NCBI RefSeq assembly: GCF_900182705.1
Contig: NZ_FXTP01000021.1
Location: forward strand, 1-61,748
Direction: 5' to 3'
Origin: Gracilimonas mengyeensis
GTDB lineage: Bacteria; Bacteroidota; Rhodothermia; Balneolales; Balneolaceae
Length of the DNA: 61,748 nucleotides
The notes beneath the pieces were generated by a model, which was given only the letters and a program-made list of their open reading frames with translations, did not search any database and was not told the origin of the DNA. The position numbers and the translations under genes were made by a program. Positions within the stretch are counted from its first letter, which is position 1, and each line of letters starts with the position of its first letter. Below are positions 25,428 through 43,616 of the stretch, in pieces.

Positions 25428-25628
25428 TGCCTACTTCAGCAGGATCCTTCACTGCACTTCCTCTGGTCGTTTGTTCAGGATGACAGGCCCTGCAATATAG
25501 AATCTAAGCCTCACTCCGCTCGGCAGGGTGGCATCAGGCCCAAAGCGTCTTCTTCCCTTATCAAAGGGAAGAAACAACCTGTCCCGAGAAGTTCGGGGAG
25601 AGGGGTTCGGTAACCAAAGGCTGGATGA
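25428..25628 (+). repeat. Dispersed composite repeat, family A, copy 1
   Basis: It begins AGCAGGATCCTTCACTGCAC, runs through TTCAGGATGACAGG and CGCTCGGCAGGG, and ends with the hairpin TTCTTCCCTT/AAGGGAAGAA and GGTAACCAAAGG. The same order of blocks recurs at 27760, 28092 and, in diverged form, at 30-35 kb. Confidence 0.8.
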
Positions 25629-36628: not shown

Positions 36629-37114
36629 TCATTTATTTTCGTCTGATAAATTCTGTCCCACACTTCTCTTGTTATACATACCTAATAATATGATTCCGAA
36701 GGAAGACAATGGAATAAGATATTCAGAGAGCAGGTCTGCTCCAAATAACAAAGGAAGGTAGGCGTAAAGCCCCGTATACAGAAATACATTTAGCAGCACA
36801 AAACCTAAACCGTGGATATATACCAGGTAAGCAGCATCTTTAAAAGATAAGCCCATTAAAAGGCTTCCTGTCAGTGCCAGCAAAAAATATCTCCCAAAAG
36901 GTATTTTATACATCCCTTCAGACTCTACCCCTCCCAGGCTGTAAGTAAAACCAATAGCTGTAGGACGGTATTCAAAAGTAATCTCTAAATCTTCTGATAT
37001 TGCGTGACTATAAACCTGTTCAGATTGCCAACTCATAAACATAGTTCTGGCTGGTCGGATAAGCAGAAAATATCCGGCAATAATTAAAGCAACTATAAGA
37101 ATGCGCTTCTGCAT
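36629..37114 (-). CDS. Small multispanning membrane protein, unknown
   Basis: A 161-residue protein that I do not recognise. It has an N-terminal membrane segment (about 5-22), a soluble loop with EDLEITFEYRP and GGVESEGMYKIP, and about three further hydrophobic helices (about 73-92, 95-118, 120-148), ending in a polar tail. It is closely paired with the Wzi-like gene (10-bp gap), so a role in polysaccharide export or envelope assembly is plausible. The layout recalls small proteins that accompany exosortases, but no exosortase is in the window. Confidence 0.55.
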   Translation of the reverse strand: MQKRILIVALIIAGYFLLIRPARTMFMSWQSEQVYSHAISEDLEITFEYRPTAIGFTYSLGGVESEGMYKIPFGRYFLLALTGSLLMGLSFKDAAYLVYIHGLGFVLLNVFLYTGLYAYLPLLFGADLLSEYLIPLSSFGIILLGMYNKRSVGQNLSDENK

Positions 37115-37216
37115 GCTCTGAATACTCTTATTCTTTAGTCAAAAGTGATTGAATATACTGTTTGTATTGGACTTTAAAACTGTCCTTTGGCTTTGATTAG
37201 AATCATGGGCGGTGAA

Positions 37217-37367
37217 AGGAGATCCCGGTTCTGCGCCTTCACTTCGTTGCGGCTTGCCCGGGATGACTGGTTATTTATACCATTTTATCCAAGAGCAGTC
37301 ATCCCGCACGCAGCGAATGCGGAGATGCGGGATCTCCTTGGTACCGGCAATGCACTGGCCAAGGAAG
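37217..37367. repeat. Family C half elements, right then left
   Basis: GGAGATCCCGG to CCGGGATGACT (37217-37268) is the right half. AGTCATCCCGCACG to ATGCGGGATCTCC followed by CTGGCCAAGG (37297-37364) is the left half. They are in the same order as in the array at 41-43 kb. Confidence 0.8.
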
Positions 37368-37476
37368 CGCTGTTCAACATCTCAGGCAATGCAGGGAGAT
37401 TGCCGCGTCGTTTGGCATACTAAGCTTGCGTTCAGCATTTTGGGCTCCTCGCAAAGACTGGTTTTTATTAAATATC

Positions 37477-37537
37477 GTCATTGCGAGGAGGCAACCCATT
37501 CTATACCAGGGCTGTTGCCCGGCGACGAAGCAATCTG
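37477..37537 (+). repeat. GTCATTGCGAGG repeat, copy 1
   Basis: GTCATTGCGAGGAGGCAACC to GACGAAGCAATCTG. It is repeated at 37910-37970 with the flanking block TTCAGCATTTTGGGCT, a 433-bp period. Confidence 0.8.
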
Positions 37538-37729
37538 TTTAATCGTAGCAACTACTTTTCTACTGGTTACTTGGCTCTTTTACCAACATATTGGTCGAAT
37601 TCACACCTCCTGCTGCTCCGGGCTTTTCCACCTCTTCTGTCTTCTCCTTCAACAAGGAGAAGGACGCTTTTATCGGTTTTATGCCGGTGCTGAATAACGG
37701 CCTTTTTCACCTAGCTCTTCCTTCCAACC

Positions 37730-38081
37730 AGTCATCCCGCACGTAGCAGAGCGAAGATGCGGGATCTCCTTGATACGGGCAACTCTCTGGCCAGGGAGAG
37801 CGTTGTTTTTCATCCCAAGTATTTTGGAGAGATTGCCGCGTCGTTTGGCATACTAAGCTTGCATTCAGCATTTTGGGCTACTCGCAAAGACTGGTTTTTA
37901 TTAAATATCGTCATTGCGAGGAGGCAACCCAGTCTATACCAAGACTGTTGTCCGGCGACGAAGCAATCTGTATAATCGTAGCCTAACAGTTCCAAAGGGG
38001 ACGTTGTTAGCATTCCAAATTGATTCGAGGAGATCCCGGATCTGCGTCTCCACTTCGTTACGACTTGTCCGGGATGACTTG
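37730..38081. repeat. Second copy of the 433-bp unit with family C halves
   Basis: The left half at 37730-37796, GATTGCCGCGTCGTTTGGC near 37829, the second GTCATTGCGAGG copy (37910-37970) and a right half (38028-38081). The block CTCCTTCAACAAGGAGAAGG occurs in both units (near 37646 and 38170). Confidence 0.75.
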
Positions 38082-38254
38082 GTGGGTACTTTATTGGTTC
38101 CTCTGCTTCTAACTTTCTGAGTGAATGCATACAACTTGCTACTACAGGCTTTTCGACCTCATCTGTCTTCTCCTTCAACAAGGAGAAGGACGCTTCTATC
38201 GGTTTTATGCCGGTGCTGAATGACGGCCTTTTTCACCTAACTCTTCCTTCCAAC

Positions 38255-38402
38255 CAGTCATCCCGCACGTAGCAGAGCGGAGATCCCGGATCGGCGCCTA
38301 CGCATTCGCTTCGGCTTGTTGGGATTACTGGATGGTTTTATGCTCCTAACCAAAGGCAAGTCATCGCGAGCGAAGTGCTCACGGAGACCCACGATCTCTT
38401 CG
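38255..38402. repeat. Fused family C element plus variant
   Basis: AGTCATCCCGCACGTAGCAG runs straight into GAGATCCCGGATCGGCGCC, so the core is missing (38255-38331). A diverged AGTCATCGCGAGCGAAGTGC copy follows (38360-38402). Confidence 0.7.
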
Positions 38403-38417
38403 AATAAACTTAGGATA

Positions 38418-39791
38418 TTAATCACGCCACCCGTCCTTCCACATTTGTTTATATTTCTTGAGTAGTTCCGGGAATAAAAAAACCATCGGCAAGGAAAATA
38501 GCGACCAATAGCCAATGTGATACCAAAATAATGCAATGGGGATGCTTAACATCACTACAACGATATCATTTGAAAGCATAACCCCGAATCTTTTCTTAAG
38601 GGATTTAAAGACCAATAAGTAGAAAGGCAAGGCAGCCAATTCCGCTACACCATATCCAATGATACCCCATTCACGAATTGCGAAAAATGCCGTCAGAAAA
38701 AAAAGCACATTAAAAGCCATCCAAAAAAAGGTCACATCCTTAAGCCCATCGTACATCTGCAAATGTATCACAGGTATAGTTAATAGGATGTAATAGAAGA
38801 AGCCCGTTGCCAAAAAAGGATATAACTCATTCATCCATATCCACAAATCATCTCCACTCCACAGAGATACGCCAAAAACGGCTACACTTCCTAATAATAG
38901 AATTATTCCGATTGGAACTATCTGCACAAGTGTGCCTTCTATAATCAACTTCCGCAGTCGTGCCTCATTTCCCTCTGCTGCACCAGCTGCGGAAGCTGCA
39001 ACTCTCTGCACCGCATTTTTATAAAATGAAAAGCCTTGTACAATCTTTTCAGCAAACGAGACAACACCAACCCCACCAGCTCCCGCAAAATAACCCACAA
39101 GTACAGGATTGGCCAGCTTCTTGGCCTGAACTGATAAATTCTGTATAAATATATGGCGGGAATGATTCTTTAATTTGGTCAGTGATTCGCGACTTATTTT
39201 CAGCTTGGGGACATACCCTGATGCCACAAAAGAAAACGCCGCGATGCTTACAACATACACGTACCAACTTGCGACAAGTATAAGGTAACTTTCATAGATA
39301 AAGATCAGCAGCAGCGTGGTAGTATGCTGCAAAAGTGCCGCCCCCAACTCTTGATTAGAGATAAGCGGAAATCGCATTTTCCTTTCTAACACCGCCCGGG
39401 GAATTTCTGTTACCACGGCTAAAGGAAGGGTTCCGATAAGCACCAATAGTGGAAACGAAAAAGCCTTGTATGGGTTAGCTGAATTCGGAACAAAAAACAG
39501 CAACAGCCCAACAACTAATATAGCCACTAAACTGATCCCCATTAGCAACGAAAAAGAGGTGTGATACAGACTCGGTTCTTCTTCCGGATCAGCCTTCAGT
39601 AATACCAGTTTAATCTCAAACTTCAGTAATAGCTCCAGGAATAAAACAACCGCAAATGCACCGGCAAATTTTCCGTATTCTTCTACCCCAATCAGATAAA
39701 TAACCAACAGGGTTGAAAGAAATCCAACAGCAGAAGCTATCACCGATTTACTCAGCAAATGAGAAAAACCCTTAACCAGTGTAGCCCGCAT
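38418..39791 (-). CDS. Oligosaccharide flippase (Wzx-like), first of two
   Basis: This is a multispanning lipid-linked oligosaccharide flippase of the MOP superfamily, moving repeat units across the inner membrane. About 12-13 hydrophobic helices are spread over 457 residues. The N-terminal SHLLSKSVIASAVGFLSTLLV and the EIPRAVLERKMRF loop are typical of the RfbX/Wzx group. It starts 22 bp downstream of the glycosyltransferase at 39814-40923. A second flippase gene lies at 51323. The C-terminus ends abruptly where the repeat field begins, but the length is normal. Confidence 0.85.
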   Translation of the reverse strand: MRATLVKGFSHLLSKSVIASAVGFLSTLLVIYLIGVEEYGKFAGAFAVVLFLELLLKFEIKLVLLKADPEEEPSLYHTSFSLLMGISLVAILVVGLLLFFVPNSANPYKAFSFPLLVLIGTLPLAVVTEIPRAVLERKMRFPLISNQELGAALLQHTTTLLLIFIYESYLILVASWYVYVVSIAAFSFVASGYVPKLKISRESLTKLKNHSRHIFIQNLSVQAKKLANPVLVGYFAGAGGVGVVSFAEKIVQGFSFYKNAVQRVAASAAGAAEGNEARLRKLIIEGTLVQIVPIGIILLLGSVAVFGVSLWSGDDLWIWMNELYPFLATGFFYYILLTIPVIHLQMYDGLKDVTFFWMAFNVLFFLTAFFAIREWGIIGYGVAELAALPFYLLVFKSLKKRFGVMLSNDIVVVMLSIPIALFWYHIGYWSLFSLPMVFLFPELLKKYKQMWKDGWRD

Positions 39792-39813
39792 ATATGAGAT
39801 TAGATTTTAAAAT

Positions 39814-40923
39814 TTATTGATATCCTGCCGCTTGTTCGTAAACAAGTATCGTTTTTTGAGCTGCCGTTTTCCAGTCAAATTTCCGGCTTTGCTGTTTACC
39901 CTTTTTAATCAGCTGTTCCTTAAGTCCATCATCCAAGCCTAATTTTTCTATAGCCTTCCTGATTGAAATAATGGATTCCGGTTTTACCATTAAAGCCGCA
40001 TCTCCGGCTACTTCAGGCAAGGATGTACAATTGGATGTAATAACCGGAACGCCCAGAGCCATGGCTTCTAAAACTGGCAGCCCAAAGCCCTCATATAACG
40101 ACGGATACACCAAGGCGTAGGCCTGTTGATAATAGCCCAGAAGTTCCTCCTCTGTTACATATCCTTTAAAGTGTACGCCCTTTTTTCTCAGTTTTTTTAG
40201 CTCGTTTTGCGACTTGTTCAGGTTGACAGTTTCCCCTACAAAATAGAGATCCATCTTTTCTCGGGTAGATGATGAAAGATAGGCCGCAATCAAACGCTCT
40301 ACATTCTTATTTCTCCGGGAGCCCCCCACATGTAACAAATAGGGCCTTTGACTATTCATTTTTTTTGATATAGCAGAAGATGGATCTATAGTTAAGCCCG
40401 GGTAAGTTACGCGGATTTTATCTTCAGGGATGCCCATCTCGGTTATTATTTCCTTCTTTGAAAATTCAGATACAGTCAAAATATCAGATGCTTTCTCGGC
40501 AGAAAGCTTATTGACCCACATCCTGAATTTTTGGTGAAGTCCGGAGTGTCGTTGTCCATGTTGCTCTGCTAAATCATGCAAGGTCACTACATGCGGAACA
40601 TCAAACGTGTTATACAAAGGAACAGGATTGGGCAGATGAAATACATCAATATCGTATTTCTGAAAGAGTTTTCCGGCTAATGCATTTTGCCAAAAGAAGT
40701 ACCAGGGCCGCATAATCTTCCTAGGATGGTGTGGAATATCTACCCGGATGAATTTAAAATTAGGATGAGATACGGTTAAAAAACTTTCAAAATCCTTATT
40801 TACTATAATATAAAAGGCATGAGGGGAATCCACTTCCTCCAATCCCTTAATCAGATAGCGTATGTATTGCCCCAGACCGTTGCTTACTGCAGGATTAACA
40901 TGCGTAGTGATGGCAATATTCAA
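39814..40923 (-). CDS. Glycosyltransferase family 4-like
   Basis: This is a retaining GT-B glycosyltransferase, predicted to add one sugar of the repeat unit from a nucleotide sugar. The N-terminal acceptor domain begins with TTHVNPAVSNGLGQYIRYL, and LHDLAEQHG and ILTVSEFSKKEI follow. The C-terminal donor domain has LLHVGGSRRNKNVERLI and the diagnostic YEGFGLPVLEAMALGVPVI with the two glutamates. At 369 residues it is complete. It is probably cotranscribed with the flippase downstream. The donor sugar is unknown. Confidence 0.9.
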   Translation of the reverse strand: MNIAITTHVNPAVSNGLGQYIRYLIKGLEEVDSPHAFYIIVNKDFESFLTVSHPNFKFIRVDIPHHPRKIMRPWYFFWQNALAGKLFQKYDIDVFHLPNPVPLYNTFDVPHVVTLHDLAEQHGQRHSGLHQKFRMWVNKLSAEKASDILTVSEFSKKEIITEMGIPEDKIRVTYPGLTIDPSSAISKKMNSQRPYLLHVGGSRRNKNVERLIAAYLSSSTREKMDLYFVGETVNLNKSQNELKKLRKKGVHFKGYVTEEELLGYYQQAYALVYPSLYEGFGLPVLEAMALGVPVITSNCTSLPEVAGDAALMVKPESIISIRKAIEKLGLDDGLKEQLIKKGKQQSRKFDWKTAAQKTILVYEQAAGYQ

Positions 40924-41028
40924 GGGTGGCTTGTCTTGTTTACTTTCCAGTGATTTAGTTTTTCGAATATACCAAAGTACGAGAGATAATCATGAGAGAT
41001 GTTTCTGAGAGACGATCTGGCCCCAACA

Positions 41029-41176
41029 AGTCATCCCGCACGTAGCAGAGCGGAGATGCGGGATCTCCTTGGTACGGGTAATGCGCTTGCTAAGGAAGGC
41101 TTTGGCTCCACCGCCTCATGTGGTGGGAGATCCCGGTTCAGCGCCTTCGCTCCACTGCGGCTTGACCGGGATGACT
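41029..41176. mobile_element. Family C inverted-repeat element, 148 bp
   Basis: The ends are AGTCATCCCG and CGGGATGACT, perfect 10-bp terminal inverted repeats. The left arm folds as TCCCGCA/TGCGGGA and the right arm as ATCCCGGT/ACCGGGAT. The core includes TTGGTACGGG. It has no coding capacity and is MITE-like. Confidence 0.75.
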
Positions 41177-41350
41177 GGTGTTTACTTTTTTTGGTTGTTC
41201 TGTTTATAGCTTTCCGGGCGAATGCTTACTACCTGCTACTCCAGGCTTCTCGACCTCTTCTGTCTTCTCCTTCAGCAAGGAGGAGAACGCTCGTATCCGT
41301 TTCATGCCGGTGCCGGTTGACTGCCTTTTTCTATCTCACTTCTCCCAACG

Positions 41351-41753
41351 AGTCATCCCGCACGCAGCGGAGCGGAGATGCGGGATCTCCCCGGTACGGG
41401 CAACCCTCTTCCCAACGGTACGTTTTTACACATCACAGGTCGTTTCCGGGAGATCCTTCACTTCGTCCCGAATTCTTGGGACTCCGTTCAGGATGACCGG
41501 GGCCTTTTTTATACATACTTAGCCTCCCGCTGGTCGGCATGACCGGCACGGGCATTGACGCCACAGGCGGCACCCGGTTGTACCCACACGCCCCGTCACC
41601 CTGAGGAATGAGCGTAGTGTAACGGAGCGAATGAACGAAGGGTCTCCTTAATACGGGCAACACACTGGCCAAGGGGCTTTGGCGCCATCGCATCATGTTG
41701 CGGGAGATCCCGGTTCAGCGCCTTCGCTCCACTGCGGCTTGACCGGGATGACT
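41351..41753. repeat. Two chimeric family C elements
   Basis: 41351-41499 joins a family C left arm to a GGAGATCCTTCACTTCG/TTCAGGATGACC right arm of family A type. 41595-41753 joins a GTCACCCTGAGGAATGAGCG left arm to a family C right arm. The mixed arms show that the arm types are interchangeable. Confidence 0.7.
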
Positions 41754-41780
41754 TGGTTTTTTATTTAACTTCCCCTACCC

Positions 41781-41927
41781 AGTCATCCCGCACGCAGCGG
41801 AGCGGAGATGCGGGATCTCCCCGGCACGGGCAACGCACTGGCCAAGGAATGCGTTGCACCACCCTACCATGTGGCGGGAGATCCCGGATCTGCGACTCCG
41901 TTTCACTTCGTCTTGTCCGGGATGACT
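41781..41927. mobile_element. Family C element directly upstream of GIY-YIG gene, 147 bp
   Basis: It has the terminal AGTCATCCCG/CGGGATGACT, with GATCTCC and GGAGATC flanking the core. Its upstream spacer TTATTTAACTTCCCCTACCC is nearly the same as the spacer at 42388-42408 beyond the gene, so gene and repeats appear to lie in a duplicated unit of about 628 bp. Confidence 0.78.
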
Positions 41928-41980
41928 GGATCTTAAAAAACATTGTAAGGATTTGCCTTTTCATCGCTCTTACTTAGCAA

Positions 41981-42310
41981 ATGAGCAAAAAGGGATATCT
42001 ATATATATTATCAAACAAGCATCGCACGGTGTATTACACCGGAGTTACTTCACAGCTGCTTGAACGGGTATATGATCACCGAAGAGGAAGAGGCTGTCAC
42101 TTTACCAAAAAGTATAATATCAGGGAACTGTTGTATTATGAAGAGTTCCCAACTATGCTTGAGGCCATCCAGGCGGAAAAGCGAGTAAAGAGATGGAAGC
42201 AAGCCTGGAAGATTGAGCTTATTAAAACTATAAATCCTGAGATGGTTGATCTGTGGTCTGAGGTTTCTACTCTTGGTCAGCCGGGGTTGTTGGATGATGA
42301 GGATGGATAG
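41981..42310 (+). CDS. Small GIY-YIG nuclease inside repeat array
   Basis: This is a 109-residue single-domain GIY-YIG endonuclease of the UPF0213/UvrC-N-like type. The GIY equivalent is GYLYIL (5-10) and the YIG equivalent is YYTG (18-21). Further active-site candidates are R29, H33, the metal-binding E66 in AIQAEKRVKRW and the NP of INPEMVDLW (85-86). The last 15 residues (STLGQPGLLDDEDG) look like an extension. It is on the plus strand, opposite to every glycosylation gene around it, and is flanked within 54 bp and 16 bp by family C repeats. It is therefore more likely part of the repeat system than of capsule synthesis. Its function is unproved. Confidence 0.88.
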   Translation: MSKKGYLYILSNKHRTVYYTGVTSQLLERVYDHRRGRGCHFTKKYNIRELLYYEEFPTMLEAIQAEKRVKRWKQAWKIELIKTINPEMVDLWSEVSTLGQPGLLDDEDG

Positions 42311-42325
42311 TACAACATAAACCTT

Positions 42326-42556
42326 GGCGGGAGATCCCGGTTCTACACCTCCGCTATCGCTACGGTTTGACCGGGATGACTTGGTTTTTTATTTAACTTT
42401 TCCTACCCAGTCATCCCGCACGTAGCAGAGCGGAGATGCGGGATCTCCTTGGTACGGGCAACGCTCTGGCCAGGGAGGACGTTAGCACCATCGCTCCATG
42501 TGGTGGGAGGTCCCGGATCTGCGCCTTCACTTCGTTACGACTTGTCCGGGACGACT
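42326..42556. mobile_element. Right half plus full family C element after GIY-YIG gene
   Basis: A lone right arm (42326-42380) begins 16 bp after the GIY-YIG stop codon. A full 148-bp element (42409-42556) follows, ending in CGGGACGACT (one mismatch to its left end). Confidence 0.75.
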
Positions 42557-42577
42557 GCCTTTTTGTAGTAAAGGATT

Positions 42578-42714
42578 AGTCATCGCGGGCATAGACCCGC
42601 GATCTCCTTGATGCAGGCAACGCACTTGCCAATGGGCTTTGGCGCCATCGCACCATATGGCGGGAGATCCCGGTTCTGCACCTCCGCTATCGCTACGGCC
42701 GGACCGGGATGACT
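42578..42714. mobile_element. Family C element with variant left arm, 137 bp
   Basis: The left arm reads AGTCATCGCGGGCATAGACC. It is shorter but still folds (CGCGGG/CCCGCG), so sequence changes have kept the hairpin. The right arm is standard, ending CGGGATGACT. Confidence 0.75.
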
Positions 42715-42746
42715 GCCTTTTTTCTATCTTTCTCTTCCCACCACCC

Positions 42747-42895
42747 AGTCATCCCGCACGCAGCGAAGCGGAGATGCGGGATCTCCTTGGTACGGGCAAC
42801 GCTCTGGCTAAGGGGGGACATTGCCACCACCAAGCCATGTGGAAGGAGATCCCGGTTCGGCGCCTTCACTCCGCTGCGGCTTGACCGGGATGACT
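42747..42895. mobile_element. Family C element, 149 bp
   Basis: A standard copy with AGTCATCCCGCACG, ATGCGGGATCTCC, core TTGGTACGGGCAACGC, then GGAGATCCCGG and CGGGATGACT. It ends 13 bp before the stop codon of the convergent WecG-like gene and may stop its transcription. Confidence 0.78.
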
Positions 42896-42908
42896 GGTGA
42901 TTTAGTGA

Positions 42909-43616
42909 CTACTTAGAGAACTTCTCGCGGCTGACAGCCCATAGAAACTTGACATTACCTACCAGGTAACGGCGCCACATGCGTCTGGGCTCGCGGACTA
43001 ATCGGTACAACCACTCGAGACCGGCATCAATCATCCATTGGGGGGCGCGGGTGATGGTGCCAGCATAAAAATCAAATACGGCTCCGATACAGCAGATATG
43101 TCCTGTTTCAAGAGCGTCTAAATGTTGGTATGCCCATTTTTCCTGTTTTGGTGCTGTCAGGCCGATAAATAACACATCCGGCTGCATCTCATTTACGGCC
43201 TGCACCATGGCTGCAGAATCTTCTTCGGAGAATTCAGGTTTATACGGCGGAGAATAGGTACCGACCGTTACATCAGGATATTCTTCAGCAGCACGGTTCT
43301 TTATTCTTTTAAGGGTTTCGTTTGTACTCCCCAAAAAGAAACAAGAGCCACCCTGCTGTTGCAGTCGGTCCATTTCATAAAAGAATAAATCGGCCCCGGC
43401 TATTTTCTTTAGCTGGGTACCGTTTAACCACTTTAGGGCCCACACTACACTAATGCCATCCGGGATCAGTACATCGCAATTTTTTAGTGAATCCGTAAAT
43501 AATGCATCCTTCCGGGATACATTGTAGGAATGAGCATTGATGGTATTTATTAGGACCTTGTCCTTTTTAATCTCGGACAACTCCCCGCCGTACACCTGGT
43601 AATCCTGAAGCCTCAT
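42909..43616 (-). CDS. WecG/TagA/CpsF-family glycosyltransferase
   Basis: This is an inverting GT26 enzyme that typically adds the second sugar (ManNAcA or ManNAc type) to an undecaprenyl-linked sugar. The N-terminal half has INTINAHSYNVSRKD and DVLIPDGISVVWALKW with the catalytic aspartate. The C-terminal half has FIGLTAPKQEKWAYQHL and GAVFDFYAGTITRAPQWM, followed by GLEWLYRLVREPRRMWRRYL, a membrane-binding tail. At 235 residues it is complete. It overlaps the upstream glycosyltransferase by four bases (ATGA). The GT26 choice fits an acidic-sugar repeat unit, as do the two sugar dehydrogenases. Confidence 0.92.
   Translation of the reverse strand: MRLQDYQVYGGELSEIKKDKVLINTINAHSYNVSRKDALFTDSLKNCDVLIPDGISVVWALKWLNGTQLKKIAGADLFFYEMDRLQQQGGSCFFLGSTNETLKRIKNRAAEEYPDVTVGTYSPPYKPEFSEEDSAAMVQAVNEMQPDVLFIGLTAPKQEKWAYQHLDALETGHICCIGAVFDFYAGTITRAPQWMIDAGLEWLYRLVREPRRMWRRYLVGNVKFLWAVSREKFSK

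Follow-up and report, generated by a model that had tools for sequence, protein, structure and literature searches.

The Ssn proteins are said to have been described by Chenal et al. (Nature Communications, 2025) as widespread GIY-YIG nucleases specific for single-stranded DNA (ssDNA); Ssn of Neisseria reportedly recognises the repeat NTS and modulates transformation, and different Ssn homologs reportedly have different cognate repeats. NTS reportedly overlaps with dRS3, another Neisseria repeat. We analysed a comparable association in contig 21 of the 4.67-Mb genome of Gracilimonas mengyeensis (Balneolaceae), a stretch of 61,748 nucleotides hereafter referred to as the window, in which a gene encoding a 109-residue GIY-YIG protein is surrounded by inverted hairpin dimers tagged with GTC. 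Genes of this subfamily are in most cases accompanied by such hairpins in the family and in other phyla, and we consider it likely that the gene encodes an Ssn-like nuclease whose cognate recognition repeats are the surrounding dimers, which may have spread by nicking and homology. If this account of Ssn holds, the core of the partnership has been described before and the window locus represents a variant with features of its own: dimers with long loops, their clustering in a local array, a separate repeat family for each of two paralogs in one genome and, in relatives, cassettes that relocate.

Two described classes of palindromic repeat are also close to these elements. CGTC-tagged repetitive extragenic palindromes (REPs) were defined by Di Nocera et al. 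(2013); according to that paper, they occur in five phyla, Bacteroidetes among the hosts, those of Neisseria are the dRS3 elements, and as a class they "apparently lack a dedicated transposase" (PMC3733652). REP doublets forming hairpins (REPINs) and their partners, the REP-associated tyrosine transposases (RAYTs), were defined in a paper of 2011 (PMC3116915).

The array spans positions 41029-42895 and encloses the plus-strand gene, which is the sole GIY-YIG match on the contig and whose neighbours are glycosyltransferase genes on the minus strand; array, gene and opposite orientation are where the original prediction, made from the letters of the window, had placed them. Its elements measure about 137-149 bp and each consists of two GTC-AT…AT-CT hairpins face to face, as in the example GTC-ATCCCGC…GCGGGAT-CTCC, spacer, GGAG-ATCCCGG…CCGGGAT-GAC. 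The features of the locus are:

41029-41176, plus strand: full dimer element, GTC-ATCCC hairpins at 41030-41066 (plus) and 41128-41175 (minus)
41351-41499, plus strand: variant dimer, left hairpin 41352-41388 (ATCCC), right hairpin 41451-41497 (ATCCT)
41594-41753, plus strand: chimeric dimer, left hairpin 41595-41645 (ACCCT, foreign), right hairpin 41705-41752 (ATCCC)
41754-41780, plus strand: spacer copy 1 (TTGGTTTTTTATTTAACTT…)
41781-41927, plus strand: full dimer element, separated by 53 bp from the gene downstream, ssDNA fold z=-7.65
41981-42310, plus strand: GIY-YIG nuclease gene, 109 residues, Ssn-like, PF01541 at E=1e-14
42330-42381, plus strand: right half-element only, directly 3' of the gene
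42382-42408, plus strand: spacer copy 2 (TTGGTTTTTTATTTAACTT…)
42409-42556, plus strand: dimer element with a single right-end mismatch (CGGGACGACT), ssDNA fold z=-1.63
42578-42714, plus strand: variant dimer, left hairpin 42579-42605 (ATCGC), right hairpin 42665-42713 (ATCCC)
42747-42895, plus strand: full dimer element, used as query of the genome-wide count
37212-38318, no strand assigned: second cluster of half and chimeric elements, ATCCC family mixed with ATTGC family

Five complete elements had been counted originally. Both exact ends (AGTCATCCCG…CGGGATGACT) are found in three (41029-41176, 41781-41927 and 42747-42895), a fourth (42409-42556) is near-exact, and two more are variant dimers. 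The distances from repeat to gene, first given as 54 bp before and 16 bp after it, are 53 bp upstream and, downstream, 14-19 bp past the stop codon, where repeat homology starts again. The spacer does occur twice, at 41754 and 42382, as had been noticed; what is duplicated is a block of right half, spacer and full element (about 41705-41927 and 42332-42556), and the single gene sits between both blocks, so duplication of the gene together with its repeats was rejected.

Chance as the origin of the repeats was ruled out by counting matches to AGTCATCCCGCACG with up to 3 mismatches (25, versus 2.5±1.6 in shuffled sequences) and to GGAGATGCGGGATCTCC (23, versus 0.12). A scan of the window for hairpins gave 33 with the GTC tag versus 4-19 with sham tags; 20 of the 33 lie at 37.2-42.9 kb, with stems ATCCC, ATCGC, ATCCT and ATTGC and a single ACCCT. 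The window hairpins mostly span 37-60 nt and have long loops. Predicted ssDNA folding of six elements yielded z values from -1.63 to -7.65, that is, the long hairpin of an inverted dimer that is typical of REPINs, weak for the element at 42409-42556. As for a known RNA family, no Rfam match at E<=0.1 was obtained within 37000-43000.

When compared with CGTC-tagged REPs as described in PMC3733652, the window hairpins share the GTC tag (present in the scanned hairpins by definition of the scan), a stem starting with A-T, a short unpaired tail and the arrangement in inverted dimers; at 37.2-42.9 kb, complementary A and T occupy the first and second stem positions in all but the ACCCT hairpin. They differ in having A before GTC at the full elements, the published tags being CGTC (or TGTC/CCTC), and in not having the published stem of 8-9 bp and loop of 4-5 bp; loops of 2-5 are found in the hairpins of clade A and B relatives. 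Since these lengths are off the published range, we describe the window elements as similar to CGTC-tagged REPs and do not file them in the published families. They further differ in that a GIY-YIG gene is associated with them, no enzyme having been tied to CGTC-tagged REPs in that paper. With REPINs and RAYTs, as portrayed in PMC3116915, the locus shares inverted dimers that fold as hairpins, an enzyme gene near its own repeats and a cognate repeat for each lineage, and the analogy drawn originally is in this sense apt in architecture. The differences concern the enzyme (GIY-YIG instead of a tyrosine transposase), the tag (GTC instead of GTAG) and the copy number, RAYTs being called single-copy in that paper whereas cassettes of genus g2, described below, are multicopy in one genome. 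The gene of the array is GIY-YIG and not a tyrosine transposase, a RAYT elsewhere in the genome having not been searched for. A literature search, which papers under other licences fell outside, returned no paper listed as linking GIY-YIG nucleases with palindromic or REP-like repeats.

An alignment of 19 sequences shows Y8, Y19, G21, R29, H33, E66 and N85 of the protein to be invariant; we take Y8, Y19, R29, H33, E66 and N85, conserved GIY-YIG residues, to be catalytic. The AlphaFold2 model of the protein has a mean pLDDT of 87.8. The fold search gave a sole PDB match at E<=0.001, the UPF0213 structure 1zg2 (E=6.4e-4), followed by Slx1 and the N-domain of UvrC at weaker E; by sequence, the closest solved relatives are 1zg2 and 1ywl, both of UPF0213 type. 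A defence family was considered as identity of the protein, and none was found by PADLOC. As a small stand-alone protein with a GIY-YIG domain and its conserved residues it shows one feature of Ssn-like nucleases, and its pairing with a repeated inverted repeat, the stem of which matches the protein and which it would recognise as cognate, is another. The best reading, by analogy with Ssn, is an Ssn-type ssDNA nuclease. Like the window gene, Ssn reportedly combines a small stand-alone GIY-YIG protein with a high-copy inverted repeat; the window repeats differ from NTS in being long-loop hairpins joined in dimers of about 148 bp that cluster locally as an array with the gene inside it, and relatives of the gene differ in showing relocating hairpin-gene-hairpin cassettes.

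We next consider how general the pairing is. Of 200 Balneolaceae genomes 92 were covered; 46 of them contain relatives at E<=1e-10, and the flanks of all 147 matches, in 144 loci, were examined. A strict scan for hairpins of seven pairs found 75 of 143 genes with a hairpin (60 on both sides) and 4.1% of 2000 fake genes (none on both sides). Inspection of 25 flanks without a label revealed short-stem hairpins in many. As the strict scan misses such types, a relaxed definition was used instead, which asks for a GTC tag, a stem of five bases of which the first is A, and C as the first base of the tail; hairpins no farther than 300 bp from the gene were counted. Genes with less than 150 bp on one side were excluded (4/147 in the family, 3/45 in other families of the phylum, 7/80 in the cross-phylum set). 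By this definition 125 of 143 family genes have a hairpin nearby, 93 on both sides, compared with 5-16 for eight sham tags (0-2 on both sides) and 10 for a sham tail (none on both sides). Hairpin density falls from 4.06/kb near the gene to 0.24/kb at distances over 1.3 kb; 20 random loci have 0.098/kb. Self-similarity, which needs no motif and was computed on the first 61 loci (62 genes, one of which, L123, was masked at part length), agrees: 31% of bases are repeated within 300 bp of the gene, 10% at 300-600 bp, 2-4% farther out and 0.6% in 20 random loci.

Because the relaxed definition was fixed after the family flanks had been viewed, the fair tests are the two sets scanned later with that same definition, gene limits there being taken from the match with a margin added. 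A hairpin is present near 32 of 42 genes from other families of the phylum (sham 1-6). In the cross-phylum set, the best 80 of at least 453 confirmed loci, found with a query from the ATTGC/ATCGC (D) clade, 52 of 73 loci have one and 28 have it on both sides (sham 2-12 and 0-4, respectively); judging from record titles, the 52 include Cyanobacteria, Chloroflexi, Omnitrophota, Elusimicrobia, Planctomycetes, Spirochaetes, Clostridia, Gammaproteobacteria and candidate phyla. The pairing does not extend to GIY-YIG genes in general, a candidate that was rejected: of 12 divergent GIY-YIG loci from seven Balneolaceae genomes, 10 lack a hairpin near the gene and 2 have one chance-like match each, in which respect this group, with the UPF0213-type proteins, differs from the window gene. 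Pairing with repeats is far above chance and specific to this GIY-YIG subfamily.

The repeat also follows the protein. On a tree of 146 family proteins (one of the 147 genes was too short) the repeat types require 14 changes versus a mean of 66.1 after shuffling, and 0 of 200 shuffles were as low; the types come from hand-made rules on the strict scan, 72 of the 146 rows are 'none' and many forks are weak. A stronger, label-free test compares the five-base stem of each gene with that of its best homolog in another genome. Both have a stem in common in 95 of 126 cases, versus 38.7±6.0 (maximum 61 in 1000) when stems are shuffled among paralogs within genomes. For genes having paralogs the figure is 87 of 112 (78%), while stem sharing averages 29% with own-genome paralogs and is 25% for random pairs. 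The hairpin stem follows the protein and not the genome. Outside the family, the ATTGC stem of the D-clade query appears in 37 of the 52 hairpin-bearing cross-phylum loci. Synteny was analysed for 59 of the 60 long-locus genes whose best homolog elsewhere is at least 60% identical: in 42 of these 59 pairs, the window gene and its nearest relative (82%) among them, no flank homology was detected within about 10 kb, the paired genes lying at non-syntenic sites, a sign of relocation.

The genome of the window contains a second instance. Searched genome-wide at E<=1, the 149-bp element at 42747 gave 32 matches. Of these, 17 lie in the window, where all 4 full-length matches (positions 1-149) are found together with the GIY-YIG gene. 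The other 15 are shorter or diverged (the best-scoring one of 41 bp, the longest of 118 bp at 72%). There are six GIY-YIG matches in the genome. One, on contig 5, belongs to the same subfamily as the window protein (E=4.9e-20) and is surrounded by an array made up of another hairpin family (ATCGC/ATTGC), for which 22 genome matches at E<=0.01 were obtained, the five best all at its gene. Both Ssn-like genes hence own separate arrays with the closest copies at the gene, and no more than a single stray motif was seen in about 3.2 kb at the remaining four GIY-YIG loci. Two paralogs and two different repeats in one genome offer a direct test of specificity. The second cluster of the window (37212-38318) is a mosaic in which half-elements of the window family are joined to halves of the family of the other paralog, positions 37393-37457 and 37829-37890 matching the contig-5 element; this suggests recombination between repeat families.

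Evidence of mobility was found in relatives. One genome of genus g2 carries, on four of its contigs, hairpin-gene-hairpin cassettes of about 423 bp that are 95-96% identical to the query copy. One cassette gave 73 matches in four genomes; in 68 of them the start or the end coincides with a hairpin terminus, and some of the matches are truncated derivatives that retain both hairpins (e.g. L445 and L448), which indicates that a hairpin-ended unit was copied and then decayed as mobile elements do. The hairpin-gene-hairpin unit relocates. The sole relocation that could be dissected against relatives (G001:C17) concerns a cassette within a 531-bp unit with TGTAGATGT/ACATCTACA inverted ends and an apparent ATTTC target duplication; the unit was inserted into a different GTC hairpin dimer, intact in three relatives (G004, G002 and G007) and absent in a fourth (G005). 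This unit, which resembles a miniature inverted-repeat transposable element (MITE), corresponds to positions 1383-1913 of the L113 query, and gene-less forms of about 150 bp appear as adjacent match pairs elsewhere in the same genomes. At a second site the intergenic region is different in each relative compared. These two sites provided no clean filled/empty pair for the nuclease cassette alone.

Taken as a partnership of nuclease and repeats, the original prediction is strongly supported by the sham-controlled survey of flanks, the repeat type following the clade and the second paralog having its own array. The locus is real, it is seen well beyond this genome and it is testable; that the nuclease drives the spread of the repeats is a hypothesis. 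What is added here is the class of repeats that the elements resemble, the subfamily specificity and the match of stem and protein. Under the explanation that we favour, ssDNA phases (replication, repair or incoming transforming DNA) would let GTC-tagged hairpins fold, and the nuclease would recognise the GTC tag and the stem and nick one strand, each nuclease lineage having its own stem preference. Nicked hairpins and homology among copies would then lead to local amplification of dimers and to copying into other sites. A nuclease gene carried between two hairpins would relocate with them, so that gene and repeats would spread jointly and each lineage would keep its own stem.

Several other explanations have to be weighed against this one. 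The hairpins might simply be terminators, or RNA structures that regulate the gene and its neighbours, as their intergenic position and their folding might indicate. This is very improbable: enrichment is seen with the GTC tag, sham tags giving values close to background, arrays and scattered copies lie far from this gene, stems vary with the protein clade, and Rfam gave no match in the region and at the threshold given above. Movement of gene and repeats by unrelated MITE-type transposases, or insertion of the gene into existing repeats, would reduce the pairing to shared landing sites, and the G001:C17 cassette, lying inside a 531-bp unit within another GTC hairpin dimer, is an example of such passage. 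Shared landing sites do not predict that the stem type follows the protein clade or that the association recurs in other families and phyla, and the 12 divergent GIY-YIG loci are without it; we judge this explanation to be distinctly unlikely. A homing-like gene, the product of which cuts empty repeat copies and which is then copied in by recombination through repeat homology, the repeat being merely its target, would fit the window gene lying between direct copies of the same block, the L068 gene lying between 274-bp direct repeats that are 94% identical, and the A-clade gene occupying the would-be spacer of one dimer. It is nevertheless unlikely, since both hairpin ends persist in the truncated derivatives, in the manner of a unit that transposes, and, for the nuclease cassette itself, no empty dimer sharing flanks with a filled one was seen at the two sites examined in relatives.

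The pair could instead serve the host, with nuclease and repeats tuning natural transformation by cutting incoming ssDNA at the repeats and with spread as a side effect. Such tuning is what Ssn and NTS reportedly do in Neisseria. Genes of ComEC type (PF03772) and DprA type (PF02481) are present in the genome, which makes a role in DNA uptake possible. As the same two families are also found in 10 and 11, respectively, of 14 control genomes, their presence does not discriminate for that role. Neisseria dRS3, it may be added, belongs to the CGTC-tagged repeats (PMC3733652). Cassette relocation and lineage-specific stems look more like a selfish pair, and we regard a host-serving role as conceivable while leaning against it.

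The number of hairpins per genome bears on the favoured explanation, cognate recognition with spread by nicking, from both sides. At least 2 copies of the type A hairpin (GTCATCCTGAACTTGTTTCAGGATCT, up to 2 mismatches) were counted in every one of the 19 genomes that carry an A-clade gene (median 26); of the 73 genomes that lack such a gene (median 0), 12 reach this number. The reversed pattern has zero copies in all 92, and the comparison is confounded by kinship. The expectation that the repeats are denser where the gene is present, which these counts mostly bear out, fails in seven of the 73 genomes, which carry at least 10 type A hairpins. In one genome (G067) there are 73 copies, while its GIY-YIG genes are all divergent (best E=3.7e-7), and another (G045, 81% complete) has 45 copies, no GIY-YIG gene being found in it. 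Gene loss, an incomplete assembly or the action of another enzyme are possible reasons for both exceptions. The type A hairpins of these two genomes would be orphan repeats or those of an undetected enzyme.

Other results speak against the favoured explanation as well. In the relaxed scan 18 of the 143 genes of the family came out without a hairpin, as did 21 of the 73 loci of the cross-phylum set; some of these misses are real repeats with another tag, such as the 189-bp direct repeats, 91% identical, at a locus of a Gracilimonas contig (L119, also L254) without GTC hairpins by that scan. Shared descent accounts for some of the match between stem and protein, since 15 of the 59 best-homolog pairs are syntenic. 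Exact prediction of the stem outside the family is modest (11 of 34, versus 4.5±1.9 with a random reference, which reached 13 of 34 in the best of 2000 draws). Past the five stem bases demanded by the scan, pairing of unique hairpins is chance-like at positions 6 and 7 (32% and 25%) and reaches 68% at position 8; the near-chance values at positions 6 and 7 imply that the conserved stem is short in most types. The move of the G001:C17 cassette is best credited to the enclosing MITE-like element and needs no action of the nuclease. Finally, binding of the hairpins by the nuclease, cutting of a single strand and a causal part of this cutting in the spread are inferred.

The pairing of gene and repeat across the family and many phyla supplies a candidate enzyme for CGTC-tagged palindromes. 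The pairing would also connect repeat spread, ssDNA nucleases and possibly DNA uptake, and would make available a large set of small nucleases whose ssDNA recognition sequences can be predicted. It can be proposed, quite tentatively, that throughout bacteria the enzyme missing so far for the mobilisation of GTC-tagged REP-like repeats is an Ssn-like nuclease. The hairpin-gene-hairpin unit of about 0.4 kb would then be a mobile element that is autonomous, the widespread dimers would derive from it as non-autonomous forms, and the two would be the GIY-YIG equivalent of RAYTs and REPINs, with different chemistry.

Two further observations concern other hairpins of the window and another GIY-YIG gene. 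Seven more GTC-ATCCT hairpins, belonging to another family, are located on the minus strand of the window between 25442 and 34912 (at 25442, 28108, 30413, 30935, 34086, 34613 and 34868). At about 211 kb of G000:C8 (locus L002, positions 1240-1815) a different small GIY-YIG gene has on either side a sequence that, judged by eye, resembles a tRNA, and the downstream copy overlaps or abuts the 3' end of the gene; the gene perhaps encodes a nuclease associated with a tRNA gene.

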